The position numbers and the translations under genes are program-made. Below are positions 1 through 48,414 of a DNA stretch of 64,000 bases, in pieces. The stretch covers positions 62,001 through 126,000 of the forward strand of contig JASAON010001634.1 in the NCBI GenBank assembly GCA_030849065.1, read 5' to 3'. The notes under the pieces were generated by a model that saw nothing but the letters and a program-made list of their open reading frames with translations, had not been told where the DNA came from and searched no databases. Within the stretch, counting starts at the first letter, position 1. Each line of letters begins with the position of its first letter. Source of the stretch: Jaenimonas drosophilae. Taxonomy: Eukaryota > Euglenozoa > Kinetoplastea > Trypanosomatida > Trypanosomatidae.

Positions 1-2735
1 GCGATGGAGAGCGGACTGGAGAGGATGGTAGAGACGGACAAGTGATTCAGCACACCGCAATCTGAGCCATCGGGGCTGTGCACCATGCAAATGAAGCCGT
101 ACGCCTCACTCGGGTACCGGCGCACCTCACTGGACCTCATGTCGGCGATGGTCTTTCCTCGATGGATGCATCGAAGCTGTTCGAAGAATCGGTAGAAGTT
201 CAGATGCTCAGCCATCACCTGCCATCCAGAGGTTTGGGGGCAGTAGAAGTCCTCCTCACGGTCAAGCTTCAGGTTGCCAATGTTGATGAGCTGCCAAAGC
301 GGCGCTAAGAAGTTGGTGCTCGCTGCTCCACGATTTACATACGCCAAGGCCTCTCGAAGCTGGCGTAGGGACTCATCCGCATCGTTGAGGGCGGCGGTCG
401 GGAGCTGCAGCACCGACTGAAACAGACTGCCAGTGCAGTGGCGGGCTAAGTTGTAGGTAAGCGGCCGAAGAAAGCGTCGCAAGCACACCTCAAAGCCACC
501 CATCAACACCTGAGACACGGTGAAGAGCTCCTGATAGGCCGGAACATCATTACCAGCGTGTTCAGCCTTGCCATCAATGAAAAGGTAGAGCTGGCGGGCG
601 ATGGCGATCAAGGCCACAAACTTTCGCTGGAGCTCGTCGAGAAGCTCCTGTGGGAGCCACGCGAGGACCTCATCGGGGGTGGCGTTGGGGCTCAAGTCAG
701 GCGTGGGCACCTCCGCGTTGAGGTGCGAGAGGAGATGACGACGAAGCATGAAGAGTCCGTACCACGCATCGTGCTGGCAACGTGTGGTTTGTGAAAACTG
801 CGGGAGGAAATGGAAAGCGCTGGAGCTACGGTGGTAGTCGCAGTACATCCGACCAATGATGGAGAGGTAGTCTAGGAAGGACGTGAGGTGCGAATAGGGC
901 TTCTTCTGGTGGTGCTGTAGCAACGCCTCCACACGAGCGAGGTGGTTGCTACCGTTGGGCATACTCACCGACAACAGCTTCACCAACTCCATGCTGGATG
1001 CGCTGTGGGTGCTCGTGGCAAAGAGGAGGAGTGGCATAGGAATATGCCAGACCACCTTGCGTGCGAAGCTGAAAATGATGTCGCCAATGGTCGTATAGTA
1101 GAAGTAGTTCTGCACCGTGATGCCACTGGGTCGTTTGCAACGAATGACAACCGCCTTGGAGGAGAAGTGTGGGCCTTGGGTCTGGAACTTGTCGCGCTCA
1201 ATGTTGATGGCCACGTTGCACCGCTGCATCATCAATGCACGCAAGATACGCTCATGGCCGTTCATGATGAAGTAGCCGCCCACCTCCTTCTGCTCCTCCA
1301 GACCCCTGAAGTGGTCCATGCGGGTGTGAACGCCACGTAGGGAGCAGCGAGATCCACGAACCATTTCTGGAAACTCTGACCACGACACCCAAATTTGTGC
1401 GCTGCTGGGAACGAGGTAGGACATGCGTTCGTAGTCCAGTACCGGCACCTGATGCTGGCGCATCAAGGTGAAGAAGTCTGGCATCGTGTGGTTCACCAGA
1501 AGCGAGTTGCATGCATCGCGACGGAGGTCCTGACCTCCACGGTGGGCGATGAAGTGAAATCCCAAACGAATGTGGCATGGTTGGGAGTACGTCTCGCAGT
1601 ACCGGCGGTCGTATTGAGGAGTGGAGAAAGGGAGACACGCGTGCACAGCACGATCATGGGCGGTTTGGACCTCTGCAATGATTTGCGACTCACGAAGCTG
1701 CTTCGAGCGAATGAGGTCCTCCAGCGAGAAGGTTGTGGTCTTGGCCTTGTCAAAGGTTTCCTTCTCCGCCGTCTCCCAATCAGCTTTGAGCCGCTCCACC
1801 TGGCTCAGACAGCTCTGAAGACGATCCTTCATCAAGTGAAACTCGCGCTTCTGCACCTCATAGTTGGTCTCCATGGAGGGAGTGGCTGGTGTGCTCGCGT
1901 GTAGAACGTCCTCTGCCATCTTCAGCCGCTTCTGGAGCTTAGTGAGGTGTGTCGCGGCATGCTCCAGGACCATGCGTGCACTTCGGCCTGGGCGTACACC
2001 AATCGAGACATCCAGCAGAACGGGAGACACCAAGCCGTAGGGCTCCGCCTCCTTTCCCTCCCCAACGAGGCCGGAAAAGAAGGAGCCCTCGTGCTTCATC
2101 TCGGTGATGAAGGCACCAAGTCGCTCGTCCGCAAATGAGTCAAACTCATCCACGTGAAATGCCACCATATCACTGAGTAGCTCCGTGTTTACACGACTGG
2201 GAAATGAGCCCGTAGGGTGTGAGAGCAGCTCATTCAGCTCCGTCAGCTCCCCCATGGCTTCCTGAAGATGGTGCAGCTTCAACCCATCGTACACAGCCAA
2301 AGCACGACCTGTGTCCTTGGAGGTATCTTGCAGTACTTTTTCTGCATCCGACTGAAGAGACTGCACAGTTTTCAGCATGCGCTGCAGCTGCTTCGGTGAC
2401 TGCTTCTTCGCAGGAACGCTCACGGTGCTGTGGCTTGCCTGAGGATCGTGCAGCATGCCAGGAACAGCTTGGCGGAGTCGCTCAAAGAACTCCTCCGTGT
2501 GGTCGCCTCCTGCCTGATCCAACCGAGCCATGTGCAGTTCCCTCTCGCACACGTACTGAAGCCGGCACACTGCATTACGCACCAGCTGCAGGCGCTCAAA
2601 GGCCTCCATCTTGGCAGGTGGGAGGCTTGGTTCATGGACTGCCCCGCCCATACGCTGCCGACGGCTGCTTTGTGAAGATGAAGTCTCCCCACATGAAGAA
2701 GAGTAGCTCCGCAGCGAGGACTTGGATGAGTGCAT
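1..2735 (-). CDS. RPA2: RNA polymerase I second-largest subunit, N-terminal part (3' end outside window)
   Basis: An open minus-strand frame runs from ATG 2735 off the left edge (911 codons, no stop). From about residue 470 it matches the Rpb2/RPA135 family: FPEMVRGSRCSLRG, then GGYFIMNGHERIL near residue 485, GWQVMAEHLNFYRF, IHRGKTIADMRSSEVRR, and VHSPDGSDCGVLNH near residue 900. The family-typical GGYF motif lies some 300 residues later than in yeast RPA135. That agrees with the N-terminal extension reported for the trypanosome RNA polymerase I subunit. The catalytic C-terminal half lies outside the window. The pairing of IHRG with the VHSPDG motif favours Pol I over Pol II or III, but this is judged by eye. 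The next in-frame stop upstream is at 2778-2780; ATGs at 2651 and 2609 are alternative starts. The product acts in the nucleolus on rRNA genes and, in some trypanosomes, on surface-protein genes. Confidence 0.88.
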   Translation of the reverse strand, partial: MHSSKSSLRSYSSSCGETSSSQSSRRQRMGGAVHEPSLPPAKMEAFERLQLVRNAVCRLQYVCERELHMARLDQAGGDHTEEFFERLRQAVPGMLHDPQASHSTVSVPAKKQSPKQLQRMLKTVQSLQSDAEKVLQDTSKDTGRALAVYDGLKLHHLQEAMGELTELNELLSHPTGSFPSRVNTELLSDMVAFHVDEFDSFADERLGAFITEMKHEGSFFSGLVGEGKEAEPYGLVSPVLLDVSIGVRPGRSARMVLEHAATHLTKLQKRLKMAEDVLHASTPATPSMETNYEVQKREFHLMKDRLQSCLSQVERLKADWETAEKETFDKAKTTTFSLEDLIRSKQLRESQIIAEVQTAHDRAVHACLPFSTPQYDRRYCETYSQPCHIRLGFHFIAHRGGQDLRRDACNSLLVNHTMPDFFTLMRQHQVPVLDYERMSYLVPSSAQIWVSWSEFPEMVRGSRCSLRGVHTRMDHFRGLEEQKEVGGYFIMNGHERILRALMMQRCNVAINIERDKFQTQGPHFSSKAVVIRCKRPSGITVQNYFYYTTIGDIIFSFARKVVWHIPMPLLLFATSTHSASSMELVKLLSVSMPNGSNHLARVEALLQHHQKKPYSHLTSFLDYLSIIGRMYCDYHRSSSAFHFLPQFSQTTRCQHDAWYGLFMLRRHLLSHLNAEVPTPDLSPNATPDEVLAWLPQELLDELQRKFVALIAIARQLYLFIDGKAEHAGNDVPAYQELFTVSQVLMGGFEVCLRRFLRPLTYNLARHCTGSLFQSVLQLPTAALNDADESLRQLREALAYVNRGAASTNFLAPLWQLINIGNLKLDREEDFYCPQTSGWQVMAEHLNFYRFFEQLRCIHRGKTIADMRSSEVRRYPSEAYGFICMVHSPDGSDCGVLNHLSVSTILSSPLSI

Positions 2736-3147
2736 TGCTGAGCAGTAATCAACCAGTGTATTCGCAACCTGCGAACTTCACCTTAGACGGGCTTGTTAGG
2801 GTTGAAGCGGGTGGCAATGGGCAAAGAGTCGTTGGACTCGCTGCCGAGCTAAAGCGTCACGGAAGAAGTGTGTCGGACGGCTACACTCCTCCGCAAAGGC
2901 TAACAATTGCTGTGAAGCACAACACGAGTAAGAAGAAGGAGAAGGGCGGAGGCATTCATGCATTACGAGAAGGACTGACAAATGAGGAATAGAGAGGGGA
3001 TGTTGCACGAGCACCAAGTGGAAGACGCAGATCTCTTTCCTCACTGTGAAGAGGTGCGAGTTGGGCACCGTTACGAGGGCCACTTGCATTCAACAGGCGA
3101 GCTTGGCTACACAATGGAAGCTGCAGCCATATAGCTGGATGGAGGTC
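2736..3147. other. Intergenic: RPA2 leader and 3' end of the PPR-like gene
   Basis: Purine-rich on the plus strand near 2930-2950, which reads as a polypyrimidine tract on the transcribed strand and would serve SL addition for RPA2. A 97-codon minus frame at 2796-3089 has no recognisable features and overlaps this tract, so I do not call it. Confidence 0.6.
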
Positions 3148-21333: not shown

Positions 21334-24295
21334 CCCCCCCCCCCCGGCGACCCCGCCGTTCCAAAATAGCCACCCGCGCCGCAAGAAGATACGCACACCA
21401 CACGAGGAACCCCGATTTTTACAACTTCAATTTCCGCGGGAATAGCGGAACCACAACCACAGAAACCCCAGCACCAATTCACGCGCATGAGGAAAATTTG
21501 CGATTGGGGGGGGGGGGGCGGAAGATTTTGGGGGAGGATTTCGGAAGGCACATTCACAGGCACCGGCAACCGCGCAAGCCACCAAATCGGAACCCCTCTT
21601 CCTGGCCGGGGGCCCCTCCCCGGCGGGCCCCTGCGGGGGAGGGGAGATGCGCCACAGAAAACCCTGAAAATGAACCAGCTTCACCCCGCCAGGAACCGCA
21701 GCGCAACCCTGCGAAACAGCGGCCAAAAGCCGAACCGTAAAAACGTGACCGCTTGGTTTTCGAAGCTCTTGGAACACCCCGAGGCCAACGGCGCATTGGC
21801 GAGCAGGCTCGGCTTTGGGGGGGGGTGGGGGGGGGGCGAAGCCCACTCCTTTACAGCGGAAGGCAAGATATCTTCCCAACGCCTTCGGGAAAGCGCCCCC
21901 TTGAAAACAACCAATTTTCCGGAGGCTTGGGCCAACCCCGCCCCCCCAAATAATGCCGAGCGGGATTGCCTGCGGGCGACATGGATGGCGTTAAAGGTGT
22001 TCACACGCCACGTTAACCATTTACCGCAACATCTCAAACCGCCATTCAGCCAGCGCAAATATTGAGTTGGCTTTCACCAAAAGCACACCTGCGAAGCGTG
22101 GGGAAGTTTCGCATTTTGGTTGGATTTGGTGGCCGTGGCTTCCTCATATTGGCTGGCCATTTTGGCGGGGCCGGCCCCCCCCCAAAAAAAAGGAGATAGT
22201 GAAAGATCCACGCACCATCTATTAACGATTAACTGGAAGTTACTTTCTACTCATAATGCGCATTTTCCCTCTGGCCATTCCCCCCCCCTCCCCGCGCGCC
22301 AGCAACCGAAAAAAAAACTGCCCATTCCTCGCGTTGAGCCGCGCCACGCCACAGCGCGCCGGTCTCTGAACCCGGCGTTTGGCGCAGGAAGAGCCCCGCT
22401 CGCAGAGGAGGCGGGGGGCCCCACCGGGCATTTTCCAACGCAGAGGGGGGGGGCACCCGTGAAATGTCAAATTTTGGAGCGCGCCTTGTGAAAACCTCGG
22501 CCGGAGACCATCGCCGGTTATAGTCATCGCTGGGTTTCGGCTTCTTGGCGCAATTTGCCGATACGCATTTTCGATTTGCGGCAAATGATGGTTCGTAAAG
22601 TTCTTGTTTTGCCGACCCTTTGCATTGCGCGCGCCGCCAAGCAAACGCGTATGAAAAGAAGGATGTCGGCGTGGGGTGGAACTTGAGGCCGGGGCGATTT
22701 GGGCGATTTTTCCCGCCCCACCGGTCTTCGGCGCGGGGGGGGGGGGAGAATTCCTGCGGGCGGGGGAACTGGCTGGTTACCTCCGGAGAGGTGGCGCGCA
22801 AAAAATGTTCCCCCCGCCGCACAACCGAAGGCAGAAGCAAGGAATCTCAAGAGACAAAAAATGCGAAGCTTGTCCGGTGGAAATAGCTTGCCCATCGGTG
22901 AACCACAGCCGCGTGATCCCCCCTGTGGGAAAATGGCGGTATTCGGGACCGCCTGGAATGGATATCTTCATTTGGCCATTAATGGTGCCTGTGGAAGAGT
23001 GCTGATCCATTTGTGCCATTGATAAGAACTGTTGCGCCGCATAAGTGCGTTGCGGCGGTTTCGCGGAAGCCCTGGGATGGATAATGCGTTTTCGCCAATC
23101 CGTTGCCTTGCCAGCGATCCCCGTTCGGAAGTGGCCTGTTATGTCTATTGATGTGCGGCCTGGGCGTTTGCGGCGTGGTTTCTCTGGTTTCGATTCGGGA
23201 TCCGTTGTGGCGCTTGTTGGGGCTGGGGTTGCTTGAGGGGGCCTGGTTTTCTCTCCATCCTATGTGGTTCGCGGGGGGGGGGGGGCGGCGCCGAATGGAA
23301 ATTTCATCTCGCAAATGTATCACCTTCTTGTTTCCGGCGCTCTGTTGGTTGAAGGGGGGGGGGGTATTCTTTACGAGTCGTGCTCACCTTTGCTGGCGGG
23401 GGCATTTCCATTTTTGGGTATTTTGCCGCTTGTTTCTTTTTTTTCCCGCGGTGGTGGGCGGGTTCCGCGCTTCCCCGCGGGGAATTCTGTTCCCGGGGCT
23501 GGGCATCGGGGGGGGGGGGATGTCCGCTGTTGTTGTTTCATTTTCCCTATCATGGCCTCACCCCCGGGGCCTATTTGCGCGACTCAGTTTCATCGCTTGG
23601 CCTTGGGGCATTTCGGCTGGTTGCATCCCCCATTCCCGTCGGGGGCTTTGGAAAAAGTAGGGGGCTGCTGTTCTGCCGCCGCCCGTTTGGCTGCGGGGGG
23701 GGGGCTTCCTTCTTTTCCGCGGGGGAATGTCATTCTGTTGCGGCGCTGTCTTCGGGAATGTTTGCTCATGATTTTGGCCTTGGATCCGGCGTTTGTTTTA
23801 AATTGGCGGGGGCCTGGCGGGCGGTGGCTTGTTTGCGGCCGGCTTTCCTGTGATGGCTTGGTCTTTCCTTTCTTTTTTTTTTTTTGGGGGGGGGGGGGTT
23901 GCCCGGTATTTCGGCGCGCATCTCGGGGGATGTTGTGGGTGAAATGCGTTTTCGCCTTCTCCTTTTAGGGCTTCCATTTCTCGTTTGCCCCTTGGTCTAT
24001 TTTGCGGTCGTGCTCGCTCCGTGTTCAGTGAGCTGGTTCGGGAACCTCGTTCTCGGTTTGTTTTTGACCGTTTCTTTTACCGGACTTTTTTTTGGTGCGT
24101 GGGGGGGGGGCGTGTTTTTTTTTTTTTTTTTTTTTTTTTTGGCAGCCCCCCNNNNNNNNNNNNNNNNNNNNNNNNNNNNNNNNNNNNNNNNNNNNNNNNN
24201 NNNNNNNNNNNNNNNNNNNNNNNNNNNNNNNNNNNNNNNNNNNNNNNNNNNNNNCCCCCGCCTCCCCCCCCGCCCGGTGGCCCGGGGGGGGGGGG
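21334..24295. promoter_or_regulatory. Cluster of fifteen 9-13-base G or C runs
   Basis: Runs on the plus strand: C at 21334, 22175 and 22280; G at 21506, 21817, 21827, 22445, 22735, 23273, 23354, 23508, 23695, 23886, 24101 and 24284. Right of 22440 every run is G, that is G on the rightward sense strand. T runs of 13, 26 and 12 bases follow at 23873, 24115 and 24298. G tracts of about this length were reported at transcription start regions of T. brucei. The alternative is poor sequence beside the gap. Confidence 0.7.
24152..24254. other. Assembly gap (N)
   Basis: 103 unresolved bases inside the strand-switch region, flanked on the left by a 26-base T run and seven C, and on the right by C-rich sequence. 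True length unknown. Confidence 0.99.
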
Positions 24296-31788: not shown

Positions 31789-33515
31789 ACGGCTCCATCA
31801 ACGCAACGGTGCGCAGTTGAGCTGCTCAAAGACGAAGTAGAAACACACTGCGAATTGATGGCATGATGCCAAACATTCCCAGCCCAGACAAGCCGCTCAG
31901 GAGCGGAGCCACAACAGACACAACGGACCGCAGAAACCTGTTGTCTGATCGAGGGTATTGCCAACCCCCTTTCAGCTATTGGGGAGTTGATTTGCCTCAC
32001 TTCTCCTGAAAGCTGGCACCAGAGTGGGGGGAGGGAGATATTATCGTCTTCCTGGAACTCTGATTGGGGAGATGAGTGCAAACTCCAGTAGAATCACCGG
32101 CACACATTTTGGTTTTGCTTATCTTGCTTGCTTGCTGGCAATGCGGCAGTACCGAAACCCTGGTGAGCATGATGCCTATGCTCTCCCACCATCGGGGAGA
32201 ATTAGGGGAAAGCTACCTCAATCTGCTGTTTCTCTCTAGCTTCAGGCGGAGAAATCGCAGAAAGGACAGCAACTGTGCACGGAAGTGTGCATTGAGCCTT
32301 TTCTCATAGGGCTGCGAGGGGTATAGAGAGGCACCGTGATGCTGCGAAATCAGATTGGTGAGCCACTAAAGTGAGTTTCCCCGTGAAAACATGTATGTAG
32401 GGGGGCTCACACCGACGTGAATTGCGGTCTTTGGGCAACTAGTTTTGCTTCAGAGGCCGTTACACCTTGTTGAGGCATATCAGTAATGCAAGTCATGGCT
32501 TTGCAGATGTGTCGATATCCGTGGCCCAGTCCCCGGTGTCACCCACCGTCAAACACCAATTACGTCGGAAGCCGAAGGGCTTTCTGCACCCGTATTAATT
32601 TCAAAGGCGACTTCTCATTTTTCTTGAGGACATACGATCAATCAGAGGAGCGTTCTCTGCCTAACCCGTAACTCATATGAAGCACGATACTCCTGTGAAG
32701 AACAGCCCTCCAGTGTCTGTAAGAGGGCTACTTGGGTGGGTTTTCGTTCGTGAATGCCGATGATGCGGCCCCCTTTCGCACTTCCACAGATCCCGCGTGC
32801 TAAGGCCAGTGGTGATACTGTGGCGGGAGTTTTACTGGTGTGGACACTGCTCTTCGCTTTCGCTTTGCGGTGCTTGACGCAGCTCACCGCCCTTCCGCGA
32901 GGAGTGAAGAGAGCCGTTCTCCATAGCCGAGTGCCTTTGATGCCCTATTTGAGACGCTAGAGCATGGGCGGGAGAAACGGCGAGACTTCACTCCACTTTC
33001 CCACTTCTTCCCCCTATTCCCTCGAATAGCGAAAGAAGTTGACTGGCGGGCAGATGCTCCGTTTGGTAGGTGGTTTTTAATACCTGGAATATTTTTCTTC
33101 CGATTTCGCTTTTCCCATTTTTTCCTCTATCTTGGATGGCCTCGTCCATTCCTTCGAATGCACACACCAAAAAACAGAATACCATGTATTGCCCTGATGC
33201 TTGCATATGCGACCGGCTCGTGTATACCAACGTAAGCAGACGGGCAAGGCGAAAGCTCGGCTCTCGCTATTCTGTTAACTAACTAAGTTCTGACTGTCTG
33301 TTTCTTCATGTGCGAGAGGTGCTGCACGCGCGAGCGACTGTATTTCGGAACTTCGATGTCCACCACCAACTGTCACGTGCCAAATACAACTAAGCAAGTT
33401 GTTCTTTTTTGTGGTCTCTTGATTAGTGTAGGTAGATAAATGACGGTTATAGGTGAAACAGTATTAGACCTAATTACCACTCGGTCTGAGCCAGGCTTGG
33501 TTCGACAAACCGCAC
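31789..33515. other. Long intergenic region, 1727 bases
   Basis: Contains one candidate small gene (32754-32960). Otherwise stops are frequent and ATGs common on the sense strand, unlike the interval before the cyclin. A pyrimidine tract and TAG near 33400-33431 probably serve the Skp1-like gene. Confidence 0.55.
32754..32960 (+). CDS. Candidate 68-residue single-pass membrane protein
   Basis: ATG 32754 opens 68 codons with coding-like codon use. N-terminus MPMMRPPFALPQIPRAKAS, one hydrophobic segment at about 23-39 (VAGVLLVWTLLFAFALR), basic tail. The layout suits a small mitochondrial membrane protein. The nearest pyrimidine tract (CTTCTCATTTTTCTTGAG, near 32610) is over 100 bases upstream. 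No family recognised. Confidence 0.45.
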   Translation: MPMMRPPFALPQIPRAKASGDTVAGVLLVWTLLFAFALRCLTQLTALPRGVKRAVLHSRVPLMPYLRR

Positions 33516-34668: not shown

Positions 34669-35307
34669 ATGCTGGTGCGTCGGTGTGCCTCTAACAGCTT
34701 TCGCTGCCTTCCGTGTGCATCCCGCCGGCACATCACACTCCCTCGACTTCTGCACGATGGCTCTTCGTTGTTAACCTCGAAGAGATGGTGCTTCTCACAT
34801 CTTCCTGGTAGTGCTAACAATCCGCCACCAGCCACTTCTTCACCTGCGACAACTCTGGAAGAAGGAAGTTCGAAGACAACACCTGCTGTGGGGGGTGACG
34901 AGCTTGTGAAGAAACTACGAAGCCTTTCCCATGAAGATCAAGAGCTTATCATGAACGCGCTTCGCAACACCGCTACATCATCATCGGAGGCAGTCGAGCA
35001 GCCTAATTTGGAAGATCAGAGCGCTACCAAGCCGATGATGGGCGGCCATGGTATTGGTATCAAAGACGGCGACATGATGGCTGCTTTCACATGTGGACGT
35101 TGTGAGCACCGCATGGTGAAGCGGTTCAGCAAGCATGCCTACACAAAAGGCATTGTGATTGTTCAGTGTGAAGCCTGTCAGGTGAAGCATCTCTTAGCCG
35201 ATAACCTTGGATGGATCGAGGACGAGGCAAGAAACATTGAGGATATTTTGAGAGAAAAGGGCGAACGTTTTACCAGGGTAGGTGATGGAGACTACCAAGC
35301 CGAGTAA
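34669..35307 (+). CDS. DNL zinc-finger protein, mitochondrial Hsp70 escort (HEP1/ZIM17)
   Basis: The product has 212 residues. The N-terminus (MLVRRCASNSFRCLPCASRR) is a typical mitochondrial presequence. Residues about 130-175 form the DNL zinc ribbon: FTCGRCEHRMVKRFSKHAY, then IVIVQCEACQVKHLLADNLG, with two CxxC pairs and the DNL motif. This family (HEP1, ZIM17, Tim15) keeps mitochondrial Hsp70 soluble and aids protein import and Fe-S biogenesis. A Ser/Thr/Pro-rich linker joins presequence and finger. Confidence 0.92.
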   Translation: MLVRRCASNSFRCLPCASRRHITLPRLLHDGSSLLTSKRWCFSHLPGSANNPPPATSSPATTLEEGSSKTTPAVGGDELVKKLRSLSHEDQELIMNALRNTATSSSEAVEQPNLEDQSATKPMMGGHGIGIKDGDMMAAFTCGRCEHRMVKRFSKHAYTKGIVIVQCEACQVKHLLADNLGWIEDEARNIEDILREKGERFTRVGDGDYQAE

Positions 35308-35331
35308 GGTCGATTTGCATATTGACTTATG

Positions 35332-37457
35332 CGTGTTTCTGCACGTGACGATTAGTTACTACTCTTGGTACCACGCCTATACGCGTGAGTTAGCTTCCGT
35401 GAGTGTTGTACTTTTTTTTTTCTTGCTCCTGTGTTTCTGTCTCTTCTAGCAAAAGCAGCTCAACATATCACTGACCGGAAGTGGTCTTTTTCCATTTTCG
35501 CGTCGTTGAATTGCCGTAGACTGGAAGAATTTGGGGTTCCTGAAACACTAAGTAGGAATACCTGTACTCACAAAACGGAGGAGTGCTGTCAAGTATCTGA
35601 ATCCCCTCACACCTCAGCTCTATTGCTTGGTTTGCCTGGCTGCCGTCACAGGAATAGCAAGGAAATTAAACTGACGCTGAAGTCATCGTTGTTTCCTCCA
35701 TTTCAAGACAAGTGGTTAGCGTAGTGTGTATAGCATTGAGACTCAGATTCAGATTCTGCTCTGTTGTTCTGTTCTTCCTCTAATTCATTTGGAGGGTCTG
35801 TGTAGTTGGTGTTACTTCCCTGGAGGATTACTGGCGGATTGCTTGCCCTGTGTGGTTCATTCGATTCAACGAAGGATCTCACACGGCTAACACTGCCACA
35901 GAGGGTGGTGCTTCCTCGTTCTGTAGCCGTATCTGCTGTGAAGGACAGCAATTCTTTTGGGCCATTTGAGTTTCTGTTGTTTGTTGTGTGTTAAGGCTCC
36001 CTGCTTACCGTATACCCGGGAACAAGCCTTGGGCACTTCTTATACAGCCGGCTCCCCCAAATATCAACGGTGGACGGTATCGAGTGCGCCGTGAGATTCA
36101 CGCGCCATCCGCACTGTCTTTCTCCCCACGTTAAACAAAGAGCTCGATCCGCTCGCCATTGGCAGCACGCAAGTCCTGATTGCTTCTATCTTTTCTTTCG
36201 GGGTTCCTGCACCCGGTGTATACGCTGACTCACTCTCCGCGGTAGTACTCCCTGCTCTCCACAACCACCGTCAGCCGTTCACGAGTACATTGTGTGTCTG
36301 CTGATTCAGCACCCGCTGAAATTTCAGTCTCCGCTTCCAATCTTTGTCGAGGGGATTTCCCACAGAATTGAAGCGTTCTGGCCAACGCTATCCAGTTGAG
36401 CCTGTGTTTTCCCCAACGAAGAACGCATTCGCACGAACATACCTGTACCATCTTCCTTGTGTCAAGGGCGTGAACTTCAGTGACGCTTAGGAAGCTGAGT
36501 GCCTGACTGGAAGAGTGAGCAACGAAAGAAAAGGGGTTGGAAGAAGTGCACATTCAATTAAAGCTGATCGGCCAAGAGTCCTGCTCTTTTTGTGACCGTT
36601 TGCTGCGGCTCGTCTGGGGTGAAGTCAAAACCGAGTAGTAGTGAGGCGAACGTGTCGACAAGGAGAACACACTGTGCGCACACAATATTTCCTTCTACAC
36701 CCTATTTTTACTGGTCGAGCTGTGCACGACAGACGGTGTCACAATTCCTTCTCCCTTTGGACGCATACTGAAGTCGCATTCTACTTGATCTGGCCTCGCT
36801 GCTTGTGGCTGACCAGAACAGGATTGAATTGGCCCTTGATCTTCCACACTAAGCATAATAAAGAAGCAAGGCTCACATTCGTGCTTGGTGATCTCATCCA
36901 ATCCCAATTTGCGTGAATATCGGTAGTTCCTCCCAGCGTTTCGCTCTTTCTTTCCTCGCAATTCAGATCCAATTCCCAGAATACACTCATCCAGTGTAAT
37001 TCCCCTTCCTTTTCAGTTTTCTGGCGCGAGGAAAGGACCAACCCCGCTTCTCAGGGGATTTTTTCTTTCACTTTCCTTCTGCCTCAAAGGGAAACAAAAA
37101 TTGATTCTTCGGAGACGGGAAGATCGCAACTGGCATTTTTCGAGGTAAGCGGAGTTCAAAGAAGAAACGTTGTTACAACTGCATTTGCTTCACGACGACC
37201 GAAACCAGAATACTCAATCCGGTACCTTCGGTCATAGGGAGCATTGGCTGTTGTTGTTTCTCTTGTTCGTTGCGCTGCCCAGAACCCCCTTTCACAATTT
37301 TCTTTGCGGGTGGCGCCCCAATACTGCATTGTTCTGCTTCCCAATCTTTCACCTTTCACCACTTTCACCAACCATTTTCGTTTGGCGAGCCCAGCTGTCT
37401 TTTTGGTTGAGTTTGGTGTTTACGTAAGCTTTCCTCTCCCCCCTTTCTCCATTATCC
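35332..37457 (+). promoter_or_regulatory. AUG-free 2.1-kb region upstream of cyclin; presumed giant 5' leader
   Basis: I read every line and boundary: no ATG occurs on the plus strand between 35329 and the cyclin ATG at 37458. Equal base frequencies would predict about 33 in 2126 bases. The reverse complement, CAT, occurs over twenty times, so the absence is strand-specific. A strong SL acceptor lies at 35411-35449, near the left end. No coding frame with an ATG is therefore possible here. Other tract-AG acceptors occur inside, for example CCTTCCTTTTCAG near 37016, so shorter leaders may also form. Confidence 0.8.
35411..35449 (+). promoter_or_regulatory. Strong SL acceptor at head of AUG-free leader
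   Basis: A 37-base pyrimidine-rich tract ends TCTCTTCTAG at 35449. It is the best-looking acceptor in the interval, and the ATG-free zone begins just upstream of it. The first ATG downstream is 37458. Confidence 0.65.
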
Positions 37458-39161
37458 ATGGCTCTGCAGGGCAGTACGTCTATGAGAGCGTCTTCTGCCA
37501 TTGTTCGTGAGTGCAACCAGGTTGAGAGGAATTCCATTAATGTTGGACACTCCTGCACTGGGCAAAAGGAGACGCAGGTGGAGAACCACCCAAGCTGCGA
37601 TTCCTCCCACTTGGGACTCTCTGAAGGACCAACAACCAATGCCGACGGACGCGACTCAAATACGCGTAGCTCGTCTCTCACGGAACGAACCTCAGATGTA
37701 GGAGGCTCGAGAAGGGGCAACTCTCCAGTTGTTTTTCAACGACCCATGAGCGCGAGGGATGCCACAGGCCACAGAAACAGGACGACGGCAAAAGGAGATG
37801 ATTCGATCCGACCCAACTACTTTTACTGGCAACAAGAAGCACTTATCGGGCTCTTCGATGTGGAGGACACAACCACGCAGGTGGATTTAGGGTGGCGCTC
37901 ATGGATCGCTGCCTGTGATGAAGGCATTTCTCGTGCTCTGATTGTTAATTCCATCGATGACATTGTGCAGCACGTGATGGGAAGTCGCAGTGCATATTTT
38001 GCAGCAGTTGCCTACATTGACAAATTTGTGGCAGCTACTCCCTCTCCTACGCAAAACTTTGTCGAGTACCAGAAGAAGTGCGCCGAACATGAGGCAAGTC
38101 GGCGACGTGTGATGAGCCGGTACATGCCTGTGCTGGGTCGAACCACCATGCCTAACCCACTAACTGGACCACCGACCTGCTGGGATGAACCCTCAGAAGA
38201 GAGCGCAGCTCGTGGAGATAATGATGCGAGCCGCGATGTATCTGCATCTATGCTTAGCGCTTTCTTGATGCAAGTGATTGTTTGCTGCTGCATGCTCGCC
38301 TGCAAGAACGAAGACTGCTACTCTGTAGGGTCATCCCGTTTGATTAGCTGCATCAGCAAAGAAAACCGCTTGACTGAGGAGCAGTTTGGACGTTTGCAGA
38401 TCCACATTCTGGAAACACTGCACTTTGACCTACACTCCGTGACGCTACACCAGCTGTGCGACACGCTCATGAACCTCGTCGCTGGCGATCAAATCCGAGA
38501 TGAGAGAGAGGCCCGCCGAAGGGTTGAGATCCTCACCACATTGCATCCATCGCCGAGTGAGCAGCAGCAAGTGCAGGTTGAGCGCCGCCTGGAGCGGGCC
38601 TATTGGAGTATTCGTTCTCTTCGCCGCTATCCAGGACAGGGGCAGCTCACCGTGACCCAGCAGATGGTGAGCCAGTTGGAGCGATTCTGCGTCCTTTCAC
38701 AGTGGCTATGCGACATTGTGATTCGTGGCCGGCGACAAGACACCACGGGAATATCGGAGTTAGAGTACACTTCCTCTCCTCTTCCAGTCTTGGCCGTTGC
38801 AGTGGCTGCCGTGGCTGCCGATGTACTCCAGATGGTGCTCCCCACACCGTTGTTTGAACTACTACCGTCGAGCTACCAAGAGAGGATGCGTGCTGTGGGG
38901 CTCGAGCCCAGCGAAGAATCAAATTTTGGAAGTGACTTCCCCTTAATCGTTGGCGACGATTGCTATGCTCTACTTTCTTCGCTAAGAGATGCACTGCGGT
39001 CTTCCACTAGCGGTGTTTCACATGCCACTCGAGAAGCGTTCTCAGAAGTATCAATGGAGAAGGCCATTGATGAAGTTAATGCTGGATACGTGTGGAGCTG
39101 GTCCAAAAAATGCGATGACATTTTGTTGCAGCGCTATCGTCCAGCGTTTGCGAAAAAGTAG
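37458..39161 (+). CDS. Cyclin-domain protein
   Basis: The product has 567 residues. An N-terminal polar region of about 115 residues precedes a cyclin box at about 150-345: AAVAYIDKFVAA, an insert, MQVIVCCCMLACKNEDCY, then RLQIHILETLHFDLHSVTLH (the helix pair that contacts a CDK). A second cyclin fold may cover 395-480 (FCVLSQWLCDIVIRG, LAVAVAAVAADVLQM). This is the layout of mitotic-type two-fold cyclins; I cannot tell which trypanosomatid CYC it is. ATG 37458 is the first AUG in more than 2 kb, supporting this start. A pyrimidine tract just before it with no AG until codon 4 would otherwise suggest ATG 37482. The unusual leader implies translational control, an inference. Confidence 0.82.
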   Translation: MALQGSTSMRASSAIVRECNQVERNSINVGHSCTGQKETQVENHPSCDSSHLGLSEGPTTNADGRDSNTRSSSLTERTSDVGGSRRGNSPVVFQRPMSARDATGHRNRTTAKGDDSIRPNYFYWQQEALIGLFDVEDTTTQVDLGWRSWIAACDEGISRALIVNSIDDIVQHVMGSRSAYFAAVAYIDKFVAATPSPTQNFVEYQKKCAEHEASRRRVMSRYMPVLGRTTMPNPLTGPPTCWDEPSEESAARGDNDASRDVSASMLSAFLMQVIVCCCMLACKNEDCYSVGSSRLISCISKENRLTEEQFGRLQIHILETLHFDLHSVTLHQLCDTLMNLVAGDQIRDEREARRRVEILTTLHPSPSEQQQVQVERRLERAYWSIRSLRRYPGQGQLTVTQQMVSQLERFCVLSQWLCDIVIRGRRQDTTGISELEYTSSPLPVLAVAVAAVAADVLQMVLPTPLFELLPSSYQERMRAVGLEPSEESNFGSDFPLIVGDDCYALLSSLRDALRSSTSGVSHATREAFSEVSMEKAIDEVNAGYVWSWSKKCDDILLQRYRPAFAKK

Positions 39162-39849
39162 AAGCCTGATCTTTCGCTGCTTTCCGGGAGTGTAGATGCT
39201 GGAGACAGCTGTCTTTTTGCAATGGCTGGTGAAGTGCAGCCATGACTTTTTCTTTGTTCCCAACTGAGTTTTCTTTATTTCGTTGTTTGTTGTATCGCTC
39301 ACACTGATTACGCGGATCTCCAATGTCTCACAAACCGGAACCAATTTTTTTTTTCACCAATAAATGATGAGCGTTGTCAATGGAAGTGGTGCTTTGTGGA
39401 GGATAGAATAGACATTTGTGTCTGGCGCGTTTTCTCCCATGTTGCATGACTCAAACACTGTGAACTCGAGTCAACTACTATGTATCTCAGCTGCGTCTTG
39501 CGCTAGTCGAATGAAGAGCATGCGATTTCCCATGTCGCATTTTTTCGACCTATGTTGCTGTTTTCGATTTTTTGTTTATGCTGCGTCATTTCTCTGCGTC
39601 TTCATTTTCGCTGATTTTTCACACCAACGTGTTCCACCACGCTACCTGCCGATTCAACCCTCATTCGCGTCGCGATGAACACAGACAGATGCCTAATTAC
39701 GAGTGCCAAGGGGGCATTGCCATTGGCTGTGACAACACTTGCCAAGTCAGTTGTGACCGAAAATAGTTGTTTTGCTCTTGGGGTGGATACCCCCTTATTT
39801 TGCTGTTTTCCCAGGCCTTTTATAACTTCTTGTTTTCAAGTGGTGATGC

Positions 39850-40086
39850 ATGCATCCCAGCAATTTTGGTGATGTGTCTCATCACAGATGTGCGGAAATT
39901 GGTAGGCCTCCGACAATTTGTAGTGCGTGCGATTGCAAGATTCGCTACGACCAGTCGATTGGGGGACTACGGAAGAACAAGGTGGCTTCAGAGAATGGTA
40001 CATGTGGGGGGGGTGGAGATGCTTCTCTTCAGTGTTGCAGGGTGGAACATCCACTCGCAGATGATAATATCTTCACATGGCGTTGA
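39850..40086 (+). CDS. Candidate 78-residue Cys-rich protein
   Basis: ATG 39850 opens 78 codons to TGA. The protein has Cys at 14, 24, 27, 29, 52, 62 and 63, with a CSACDCK core suggesting metal binding. Two tract-AG acceptors (near 39814 and 39840) lie just upstream. An out-of-frame ATG four bases earlier opens only eight codons. No family recognised; overlapping open frames weaken the call. Confidence 0.4.
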   Translation: MHPSNFGDVSHHRCAEIGRPPTICSACDCKIRYDQSIGGLRKNKVASENGTCGGGGDASLQCCRVEHPLADDNIFTWR

Positions 40087-40908
40087 CTTCGCTTCCAAAA
40101 ATTCCGTTGACATTTCCTGTGGCGAAGTGTCGTGAAAAAGCAGGAAGTAACCGAATGGAACAGCTGGTTTCAATCAACCTAGGGATTCGGGTTGAAGGGA
40201 GGAGGGCATGCAATCTCTTGTCAACATCTCTCTCGGTGCTTTGTGCTTCCAAGAGATGTATGCGTCACGAGAGAACATGCCTCGGTCACATAGCTGCGCT
40301 TGCAGTCTATCTCCCCCAAGTGAAGCAATAGCATCCCCCCCAAAAGTTATTTGTTGCGTTTTATGTTTGCGGATTGTGTTGTCTTCGTTTCCTTTTTGTT
40401 TGTTTGATTCGTCTTTTTTTGGTTTTGCATGGCTCATCCCCCATATAGCCCCGCACGAGAGTCTATCGATCTGAGGAACGCGTTCCCGGCGTCATTGATT
40501 TAGTGCATCCACTGGCTCATGTGGTTGGAGGGCGAGCTTCCGGTTTTTTTTGATTGTTGTCAGACGCGGTATATATCTACAAGGCGGTCGAAGAAAGTGC
40601 TCCAAAAAGTGGGTGGGAGAGGGGCTGAGTCATCCAGGACACCACTTTGATGAATGCAGCGCATGCGGGCTCATAATCCTGCAATTGCTTGTGACAGCCC
40701 GATAGTTTTGTGATGCTAGTTGTGCACAAAGTCTCCAAGGTGATAACCAATGACGGCTGGCGCGGGTGATTGGCTTTAACAGGAATCATTATGCTGACGT
40801 GCTGGATTTGTAGTTCATAAAGTAGCAACTCCCATGTACCCTCTCGCCATCCTCGTCTTTCTAACTTTGCTCACTTAATCGTGCGATTCCACTTGTCCGT
40901 TGCTATCA

Positions 40909-41127
40909 ATGGATGACTTTCGGTGCATTCGTTGTCGATGTGAATCACCTTCAGAGTCATTACTCCCCTCCCGTCTTCCCGATGAACACCATCGAGCTAT
41001 GAGCTCGCTATATCCTCAAGGTGTGTTGAACTGTTTGCTGCGATGCTGTAGGCCAAGTGGCTTTTCTTTGTTGTTTTCAGTCCACTGTGTGCTGATGTAT
41101 TGTTCGGGAGGGGAAGTTCTAGTGTGA
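40909..41127 (+). CDS. Candidate 72-residue Cys-rich frame
   Basis: Starts MDDFRCIRCRCESPSES after a pyrimidine-rich stretch at 40845-40900. A second tract ending TTGTTGTTTTCAG lies inside the frame at about 41068-41083 and looks like an SL acceptor. The frame may therefore be UTR. Weak call. Confidence 0.22.
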   Translation: MDDFRCIRCRCESPSESLLPSRLPDEHHRAMSSLYPQGVLNCLLRCCRPSGFSLLFSVHCVLMYCSGGEVLV

Positions 41128-41556
41128 ATGTTGCGAGAACAGCTGGTTGATGTAAGAGATTGACTGCCGTCTGGATGGTTGGATTACAGGTTCAATGGCT
41201 ATGCATGCCGTAGTTCCGTTCGCTTGGAGTGAATAGGAATGCCCATCCCTAAATGCTTTGAAATTTTACGGCCGTCTTATATTTGTTGTAATTTTTCTGA
41301 CGTCTGAAGACTTCGAAAGTTGCGCCACTGTTGTAGTGAGCACCCACAGCTCCAATCATCACGCCTTTGGTGATGGGAGTCTACCATTAATAACTTTGTG
41401 CTGATTCTTTTTTTTTTTTGTTTCTTGTGCGTGCACATCAGATACCACTACATTCACCTTGGCCACTTGTCGTGAATTTCACACATTGGCTCCATCAAGA
41501 CATAGTCACATCAAGGTTTTTTCCCTTATCCGACCATAATCAAAGCAGCTAAGGAG

Positions 41557-41940
41557 ATGGCTGCCATGGGAAAGAAGGATGACGCCCCAATTGACGTAAC
41601 GTGGGAGGACCAGCAACGCATTTGCACTTTTTCCAGACTTCACCGTCGCATTCAGCACCTTCTGAAGCGTCAGGCGATGCTCAACGATGACGTGGAGAAG
41701 TTGGAAGATGCCAGCACCGAAGCCATGATTTGCGATGATGTGAAGTATGTCTTTGGAGAGGCGTTTGTCGACTTGGAATCTGGCCGCGCCGTGGATTTCC
41801 TTGAGGAGGACAAGGAACGCGTTGAAGAGGAGAAGGCCGAGGTGGCTGCGGAGCTCAAGGAGCTGGACAACGCACTGAGTGGCCTGAAGGCACAACTCTA
41901 CGCGAAGTTTGGCTCCCAGATTTATCTTGAGGACAAGTAA
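41557..41940 (+). CDS. PFD4: Prefoldin subunit 4
   Basis: The product has 127 residues and aligns along the whole length of eukaryotic prefoldin 4: VTWEDQQRICTFSRLHRRI, KLEDASTEAMICDD, VFGEAFVDLESG, and the conserved end LKAQLYAKFGSQIYLE. It is a beta-type prefoldin with two helices of a coiled coil around a short hairpin. Prefoldin is a hexamer that hands unfolded actin and tubulin to the CCT chaperonin. Another chaperonin relative lies in the left array, but the two are not linked by position. Confidence 0.95.
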   Translation: MAAMGKKDDAPIDVTWEDQQRICTFSRLHRRIQHLLKRQAMLNDDVEKLEDASTEAMICDDVKYVFGEAFVDLESGRAVDFLEEDKERVEEEKAEVAAELKELDNALSGLKAQLYAKFGSQIYLEDK

Positions 41941-42045
41941 GCATCGTCGAGCCGAACCTCTTGACTTGACCGCTAGATACTCTGTGGTGCATCCTTCTTC
42001 GCGGAATCTTGGTGTCTGTGTCAGTCACTCTCGCTTCCCTGTAGG

Positions 42046-42395
42046 ATGCAGAGAGAGAAGCAGCGGGAAACGATTGGCATTGAACCAGATCAGAACCCTG
42101 TGAGCGCCGCTCGGGAGGTGCGCCGCCAGTCTTGTCGTAAAGTAAGTCAACTCGCTTCACGGATGGGTAGGCCTGCACTGTGGACGCTGCTAGATGGTGT
42201 TGAGGTTTGGTATATGAACAGAATCCTCAAAAGCTTCTCAAACTTTCCTTGTTTTTTTTGTGATCAATTGTTAGCACTCATTGCTAGGGGCCTGTGATCT
42301 ATCAAGGAACGGTTGCTGGCGGTGTGACGTCGTCGATCCTCGTGGTAGAAGACGATCAGTATCCTGGCCGTGACAACCTCGCATCGCTGGATTGA
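42046..42395 (+). CDS. Candidate two-exon small gene with possible cis-intron 42142-42287
   Basis: Just after a clean SL acceptor (CTCTCGCTTCCCTGTAG, AG at 42043-42044), ATG 42046 opens MQREKQRETIGIEPDQNPV and runs 32 codons to AAA at 42141. GTAAGT begins at 42142. At 42250-42287 is a tract ending in TTAG and then CTAG. Directly after the second AG, 42288-42392 reads GPVIYQGTVAGGVTSSILVV and ends acidic, YPGRDNLASLD, then TGA. This second part is in another frame, has no ATG and is preceded by an in-frame TAG, so it needs splicing or a frameshift to be translated. Joined, it would give 67 residues. Unspliced, the first frame stays open to 42297 (83 residues). Cis-introns are extremely rare in trypanosomatids. 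No family recognised. Confidence 0.35.
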
Positions 42396-42589
42396 GCATT
42401 ATTGTCATTGCCATTGATTATTCCGAGCTGCTTGCGACTCGCTAACTCACGAAAGGGGCTGCTCCGTACCTCTGTCCATCGTGTGACCGTCTTGAGTTAC
42501 TGCGACGGTGCTTGCGCGGCTTTGTTTTCTCGTTTATTGTCGTGTGCGGTGACGTTCTGTTTCCCTTCCCTCGCTCTGATTCGCTAACC

Positions 42590-47300: not shown

Positions 47301-48414
47301 GTTGTGATTTGTCGACTCCTTCTCAAATCTGAGCCATGCAGCTCTCTTACTTGTGGGCGTTCCTGATGTAAGTGCCCGCCCGTGCTCTCGTGACGTTTGC
47401 TCCCTTTCACCAGATACTCAGCTCAACTATGTCGCGTTTCCTTGGGCAAATACGTCTTTTCCTTCATCGCCACGGAAGAAGAGATCTGTAGTGATGCGCG
47501 TTGCCTTCATCATATCCAATGGAAGCAATTTCTTTTCTTGTTTACTGTTGGTGGAGTCATATATTCGTTTTGTTCGTTTGCTCAGCAATAATGTGTGCTT
47601 CACTTCTTGATGGTAACGAGACCGTAGCTGGGGATCACTACGGTGCGTTCTCACACTACAACATGAACTGAAGTGCGGCGAACGGTGGTAGCGGAAATTT
47701 CCAGAGAGCCATGTGATTACTTGCTCTTTCCTCCGTCCTCTGCCCCAGGCATTGCGAGGCACACATTTTTTTTTTATGCACTGCTGTTTCTTCTTGATTC
47801 GTACACCCTCTCTTCTATGCTTCTGTGATTTTGCCAGCACAAAAACCAGGCACTCAGTTGTTTGTGGAAGAGCTTTTCTAATCCGGCGCAGCTTGTGCGT
47901 TTGTTGGGATAGTACTGTTTGTGTTTCGTTCTTCCTTTCTTCCTTTCCTTTGTGTTGTGAACCGGGTGACATGGTGACGACTTTTGCAGCTCGCGAGATG
48001 CTCCTCCATCTGTGCGTCAGCACCTCACCCTTTCCAGCTTCCCCATCAACATCAACATTTCTTTGCTTGACTTAATAGGGTTTGCTCAGCTGCCGCTCCC
48101 CCCTTCTCGCTTGTTGGACGCTCTCTCCTGAGTGATTGCCAGCTTGTGCATGATCCCCTATTTTTCAACCCCTTCCCATTTTCATACATCTGAGCCAACC
48201 GTCTGGGTACGAAGGCGTGGAGTTTACGTGGGGATTATACCGACATCTACAAATCTCTCTCTCCCGTTGCGTACATGTGGGACCTTACCTCGCTGTACTG
48301 TTACTCCTCTACCATTGCTGAGCTCGAATGATTTTCTTTCCCCCTTTCGTCTACGTGTTTTGTACAGGCCCCAATACTGGCAAGCCAAGTGGACGCTATT
48401 TAGCTCATTCAACC
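47301..48414. other. Intergenic region, 1114 bases
   Basis: Pyrimidine-rich throughout on the plus strand; ATGs are common. Frames open here without ATG or with short leader-like ATGs are not called. The last part holds the acceptor described at 48330-48367. Confidence 0.6.
48330..48367 (+). promoter_or_regulatory. SL acceptor that sets the start of the RhoGAP-like gene
   Basis: TTTTCTTTCCCCCTTTCGTC followed by GTTTTGTACAG places the acceptor at 48366-48367. This lies after an in-frame ATG at 48328, so that ATG is outside the mRNA and the start becomes 48415. Confidence 0.75.

Follow-up and report, generated by a model that had tools for sequence, protein, structure and literature searches.

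The cyclin-like gene of the window (the whole 64-kb stretch of DNA that was analysed) is preceded on its sense strand by more than 2 kb without a single ATG, an absence that is far beyond chance. In our judgement the cyclin mRNA very probably carries a trans-spliced 5′ leader of ~2.0 kb, which runs between a candidate acceptor (35449) and the cyclin AUG and from which selection removes upstream AUGs (uAUGs). We favour this reading because the depletion is strand-specific, is limited to AUG, runs right up to the start codon and spans the 1.5 kb lying furthest upstream. The stretch and its flanking genes are:

34669..35307, + strand: zf-DNL protein (DNL zinc-finger), the upstream gene; 212-aa ORF, Pfam zf-DNL E 6.8e-29
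35330..37457, + strand: ATG-free sense-strand stretch of 2128 nt, delimited by ATG counts and shuffles
37458..39161, + strand: cyclin-like protein; 567-aa ORF, Pfam Cyclin_N E 8.5e-07 at residues 271-325

Absence of ATG upstream of the cyclin gene

A sequence-only reading of this DNA had reported no ATG between 35329 and the cyclin start, and direct counting agrees: after the sense-strand ATG at 35329 the next is found only at 37458, the cyclin start itself. This gap of 2129 compares with a second-longest of 413 on the + strand of the window. Base composition predicts 30.7 ATGs for the interval, dinucleotide-preserving shuffles 24.0 ± 3.9 (minimum 11 among 5000) and the local intergenic rate 39.3, the last being drawn from 12 other + strand spacers in the window (159 ATGs in 8618 bases, or 1 per 54). 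The ~33 given earlier, at equal base frequencies, sits within the 24-39 of these other estimates, all of them set against an observed count of zero. The Poisson chance of finding no ATG is 3.1e-11 (dinucleotide) or 8.9e-18 (local rate). As none of the 5000 shuffles fell below 11, the earlier statement that base composition alone does not explain the absence is upheld. Between 35449 and 37457 ATG is the sole trinucleotide with zero copies, the next rarest being CTA with 10.

Other long spacers had been described as containing many ATGs, and they do, with 29 in 31789-33515, 57 in 39162-41556 and 15 in 47301-48327. For the last of these the right end had been placed at 48414, which is not correct; the next ORF of at least 120 aa starts at 48328. 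The spacer that follows the cyclin gene (39162-42589) is long too and holds a small prefoldin-like ORF at 41557-41940. Elsewhere in the window, a run of 103 N (24152-24254) is either masked sequence or a gap in the assembly. Of all trinucleotides it is TAA that has the longest gap on the + strand (2288 bases, 458-2746); nearly all of this gap lies inside a 1600-aa minus-strand ORF and it probably reflects ordinary codon usage.

The deficit of sense-strand ATG exceeds what composition predicts and has no mirror in CAT. The latter, said earlier to occur more than twenty times, was counted 28 times in the ATG-free interval (29 including one copy that starts on the last base), near its dinucleotide expectation of 29.7 and under the 39.1 scaled from other spacers. 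Since CAT too falls below its scaled count, the local-rate expectation for ATG may be too high, and the more cautious estimate, from dinucleotides (24), is to be preferred. The nine near-cognate codons (CTG, GTG, TTG, ACG, AAG, AGG, ATA, ATC and ATT) total 333 copies against 284 scaled from other spacers; singly they vary (GTG 41 observed against 48.9 scaled, TTG 51 against 56.8, CTG 57 against 37.3), and as a group they are not depleted, which fits selection on AUG only. In Trypanosoma cruzi, only AUG-started upstream ORFs (uORFs) are reported to be associated with low translation efficiency (PMC7059621). This specificity, to AUG and to one strand, is most naturally explained by selection against initiating translation ahead of the cyclin.

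Rarity within the genome

To place the gap in its genomic context we used a sample, not a census, of 250 kb on both strands, ~1.3% of the 18.8-Mb, 370-contig genome. At 2129 it exceeds every other gap in this sample, the next being 698. Across 87 same-strand spacers, the ATG-free run that adjoins the start codon measures 2126 here and then 695, 471, 453 and 447. The ORFs bounding these spacers are 150 aa or longer; they were read from the most upstream ATG, with smaller genes ignored, and single lengths may therefore be off. In the other sampled spacers ATG density is one per 125 nt within 100 nt of the start codon and one per 39-58 nt further upstream. Avoidance of ATG near starts is therefore general in this genome, in a zone of ~100 nt that equals an ordinary leader in size, and the cyclin gene stretches that zone about twentyfold.

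The runner-up (L009; G000:C1, ~2387-3081, minus strand) has 695 ATG-free nt within a 787-nt spacer; the ORF that follows extends past the contig end (at least 795 aa) and has its best Pfam match with MT (dynein stalk) at 31.4 bits. A CT-rich tract with CACAG, spotted by eye as a candidate acceptor, stands ~46 nt inside the ATG-free run, and a leader starting past it would span ~650 nt. This suggests a second, smaller-scale ATG-free leader and would point to a general rule. ATG-free runs may thus serve as a finder of long leaders that needs nothing but sequence, as L009 suggests.

Candidate splice acceptors and the extent of the leader

The polypyrimidine tract plus AG expected of a trans-spliced leader is present upstream of the cyclin ORF, at 35449 and again at internal sites:

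35411..35449, + strand: polypyrimidine tract plus AG matching the consensus, the likely distal spliced-leader acceptor that would start the long leader
35450..37457, + strand: inferred 5′ leader of the cyclin mRNA, 2008 nt with the spliced leader excluded
36944..36966, + strand: internal candidate acceptor, tract score 19, AG ending at 36966; leader 491 nt
37000..37016, + strand: internal candidate acceptor, tract score 16, AG ending at 37016; leader 441 nt
37060..37089, + strand: internal candidate acceptor, tract score 22, AG ending at 37089; leader 368 nt
37429..37469, + strand: candidate acceptor reaching into the coding region, tract score 25, AG ending at 37469

At the distal site the longest T/C-rich tract with at most one purine is 20 nt, and the AG occupies 35448-35449. 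Two spliced-leader patterns gave no exact match in the contigs examined. The tract at 37429..37469 is the top-scoring one near the cyclin gene, although the tract itself stops just before the start codon; splicing at 37469 is predicted to leave a 12-nt leader before the in-frame AUG at 37482 and a protein 8 residues shorter. A purge of internal acceptors was considered and rejected: there are 0 in 35461-36910, yet ~60% of 200 shuffles have none there either.

Counted from 35449, the putative leader has 0 ATGs against 23.7-37.1 expected. Much of the weight falls on the segment 35449-36966 (1518 nt), which precedes the first strong internal acceptor and also holds 0 against 20.5-28.0 (Poisson chance 1.3e-9 and 6.9e-13). 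Because this 1.5 kb, exclusive to the long transcript, is likewise empty of ATG, a transcript from ~35449 should matter. Moreover, neither a short leader nor composition alone would suffice, given that the upstream 1.5 kb is ATG-empty and that the near-cognates as a group are undepleted. The sequence-only reading had a strong acceptor at 35449 marking the left end of the stretch. The acceptor-like sequence is indeed there; the fit is loose, however, as the ATG-free edge lies 120 nt before it. For the 119 nt that separate the last ATG from the site 0.5 to 2.2 ATGs would be expected, and the interval is hence uninformative.

The distal candidate lies 142 nt past the zf-DNL stop codon, and the median distance from poly(A) site to splice site in T. 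brucei is reported as 142 nt (PMC2936537). With the stop-to-acceptor distance equal to that median, the zf-DNL mRNA would be left almost without a 3′ UTR whenever 35449 is used, which by this analogy is the main tension in the long-leader reading. The tension is eased by short spacers, which this genome has in some number (147 nt at the 10th percentile, n=87; smallest 0, 54, 73 and 76 nt) and which make a processing site 142 nt past an upstream stop feasible, or by alternative acceptor use.

The cyclin-like gene and its relatives

The Cyclin_N match that identifies the cyclin box scores over the gathering threshold and covers profile positions 74-126 of 127 only. The profile search lists eight Cyclin_N places in the genome, of which the 37458 locus is the weakest. 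No PDB sequence relative of the protein was found, the single match being to an antibody at chance level, and no orthologue was found in the protein, genome-contig or viral-contig collections searched. We take the organism for a trypanosomatid on the strength of the window's uL23m, which scores 283-418 bits with five mitoribosome sequences of kinetoplastids and 26 or less with any other. Chains 7aih/7ane give 418 bits and 6hiv gives 379; we take these to be Leishmania and T. brucei mitoribosome chains, respectively.

The context of the cyclin start (TCC-ATG-G) has G at +4 and T at -3 and is not ideal; trypanosomatid start codons are reported usually to carry a purine at -3 (PMC7059621). The second Met of the ORF is codon 9, its AUG being the one at 37482. 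Taking the most upstream in-frame ATG as the start, five of the seven other cyclin loci have an ATG start, with the nearest upstream ATG 24-375 nt off, and two have no start. With upstream ATGs this close at those five loci, a long AUG-free leader is not typical of the cyclin genes in this genome.

Structure, coding potential and repeats

The predicted structure of the leader is ordinary (mean fold z -0.24 over 32 windows), which rules out an unusually unstructured leader. One local fold stood out as a weak lead:

36948..37037, + strand: possible hairpin, 12-bp stem, local fold z -4.25

The borders behind this z value were picked after the scan. The hairpin's 5′ arm falls within the polypyrimidine tract of the candidate acceptor at 36966. 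A stem equal or better arose in 5 of 60 shuffled leaders, and we therefore rejected the hairpin as a significant element. No match of the leader to Rfam was found at E up to 1. CATAGAA, reportedly the core of a cell-cycle octamer from work on Crithidia, is absent from it. Sense coding sequence was dismissed because the longest stop-free run, 106 codons, is equalled or exceeded in 218 of 300 shuffles. On the antisense strand no frame stays open beyond 107 codons, a figure taken without shuffle comparison, and coding there was likewise discarded. A search of the genome for a repeated or duplicated leader, with simple repeats skipped, matched its own locus only.

Explanations for the ATG-free stretch

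We infer the transcript, the scanning and the selection from the counts, their specificity and the acceptor-like sequences set out above. Trans-splicing would add the spliced leader at 35449 or close to it, at least in a fraction of cyclin transcripts large enough to matter functionally. Small ribosomal subunits, loaded at the cap, would scan as far as the AUG at 37458. A uAUG on the way would capture them and lower cyclin output, and mutations creating one would be removed. Shorter cyclin mRNAs from the internal acceptors (36966-37089) may coexist with the long form.

An arrangement with a short leader as the norm is improbable. It would have the mature cyclin mRNA normally start at 36966-37089, with a leader of 368-491 nt, so that the 1.5 kb upstream is mostly zf-DNL 3′ UTR and its lack of ATG incidental. 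The clustering of three acceptor-like sites there, the reported shortness of kinetoplastid leaders as a rule (PMC6597758) and the normal 3′ UTR that the zf-DNL mRNA would gain all speak for it; a 3′ UTR, however, is not expected to shed ATG, and yet none of the 20.5-28.0 predicted for those 1518 nt is present. A possible arrangement, which would complement the purged leader and not replace it, is an alternative trans-splicing switch between 35449 and the internal acceptors. The same DNA would then serve now as cyclin leader, now as zf-DNL 3′ UTR, giving long and short cyclin isoforms in a ratio that varies with cell cycle or stage. A strong distal candidate with several internal acceptor-like sites, one of them past the first AUG, would suit such a switch, as would a hairpin over an internal tract, although that hairpin is unremarkable for a leader of this length; alternative trans-splicing is reported to be widespread in T. 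brucei (PMC2916883).

We regard it as very unlikely that the stretch belongs to a separate transcript, non-coding or with undetected coding sequence, that is unrelated to the cyclin. Such transcripts have precedent, in that, of 1,114 newly described T. brucei transcripts that are trans-spliced and polyadenylated, 103 are reported to lack an ORF of at least 25 aa, the six largest of these 103, at >1,000 nt, being without any coding potential (PMC2936537). Against this stand the Rfam result and the stop-free run so readily matched by shuffles, and it is not evident why a non-coding RNA should lack AUG all the way to the start of the next gene. A mutational or compositional quirk, or a signal in double-stranded DNA, can be given almost no credence. 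The TA-containing triplets TAT, TTA, CTA and TAA are scarce too against base composition; however, every one of the dinucleotide shuffles kept at least 11 ATGs, and the 28 copies of CAT, the other-strand form of ATG, make the deficit one-stranded, which excludes an effect of DNA composition.

A single long leader purged of uAUGs, along which ribosomes would scan to the cyclin, thus stands as the best explanation, as the sequence-only reading had proposed. That reading went on to suggest a striking case of translational control, a step that is not warranted. The absence of uAUGs only removes a known brake and permits translation, and it is therefore no evidence of control; we raise translational control by the cyclin leader as a hypothesis. 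One rather doubtful form of it is a gate that depends on length, in which the 2-kb leader would make cyclin synthesis sensitive to initiation capacity, and hence to growth state, and the use of internal acceptors would remove the gate. Cell-cycle control could then be exerted through the choice of trans-splice site, without transcriptional control.

Comparison with known systems

Trypanosomatid cells have no gene-by-gene transcriptional control. If the long leader is real, one may ask why it has been retained at this length by a cyclin-like gene, given that such control is missing. Moreover, a natural AUG-free leader of ~2 kb would offer a test of how far scanning subunits can travel in trypanosomatids.

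The leader proposed here resembles trypanosomatid trans-spliced, uAUG-free 5′ UTRs in having an upstream spliced-leader acceptor (a candidate in this case) and a coding AUG that is the first AUG. Kinetoplastid 5′ UTRs are described as mostly <100 nt and rarely >250 nt, those >200 nt lowered reporter expression in T. brucei, and losses during scanning may rise with leader length (PMC6597758). Lower translation is reported to accompany AUG-started uORFs in both T. cruzi (PMC7059621) and T. brucei (PMC6597758). The reported median 5′ UTR is 130 nt including the spliced leader in T. brucei (PMC2936537) and 242 nt in L. mexicana (PMC4599935), against the ~2,000 AUG-free nt proposed here.

Comparable lengths are nevertheless on record. 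The 5′ UTRs of T. brucei are given as ranging to ~2,500 nt (PMC2936537), and spliced-leader trapping lists, depending on stage, 153-198 genes under ‘5′ UTR >2kb’ and 235-356 under ‘major 5′ UTR >2kb’ (PMC2916883). The accounts of these long leaders in the relevant parts of the two sources do not state whether they are AUG-free, whereas the cyclin leader would be so throughout. A search of titles and abstract openings in the open-licence literature yielded no AUG-free multi-kb trypanosomatid leader among the matches listed. Outside the group, long unstructured leaders engineered in yeast (PMC12415969) share with the cyclin leader a long path for scanning 40S subunits. Those leaders, as described there, are at most 500 nt and designed to be unstructured, whereas the cyclin leader would be a natural one of some four times that length, and its predicted structure is ordinary. 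Taken together, length alone is not new, as long trypanosomatid 5′ UTRs are known; it is the absence of AUG over the whole length that would make the cyclin leader an extreme variant.
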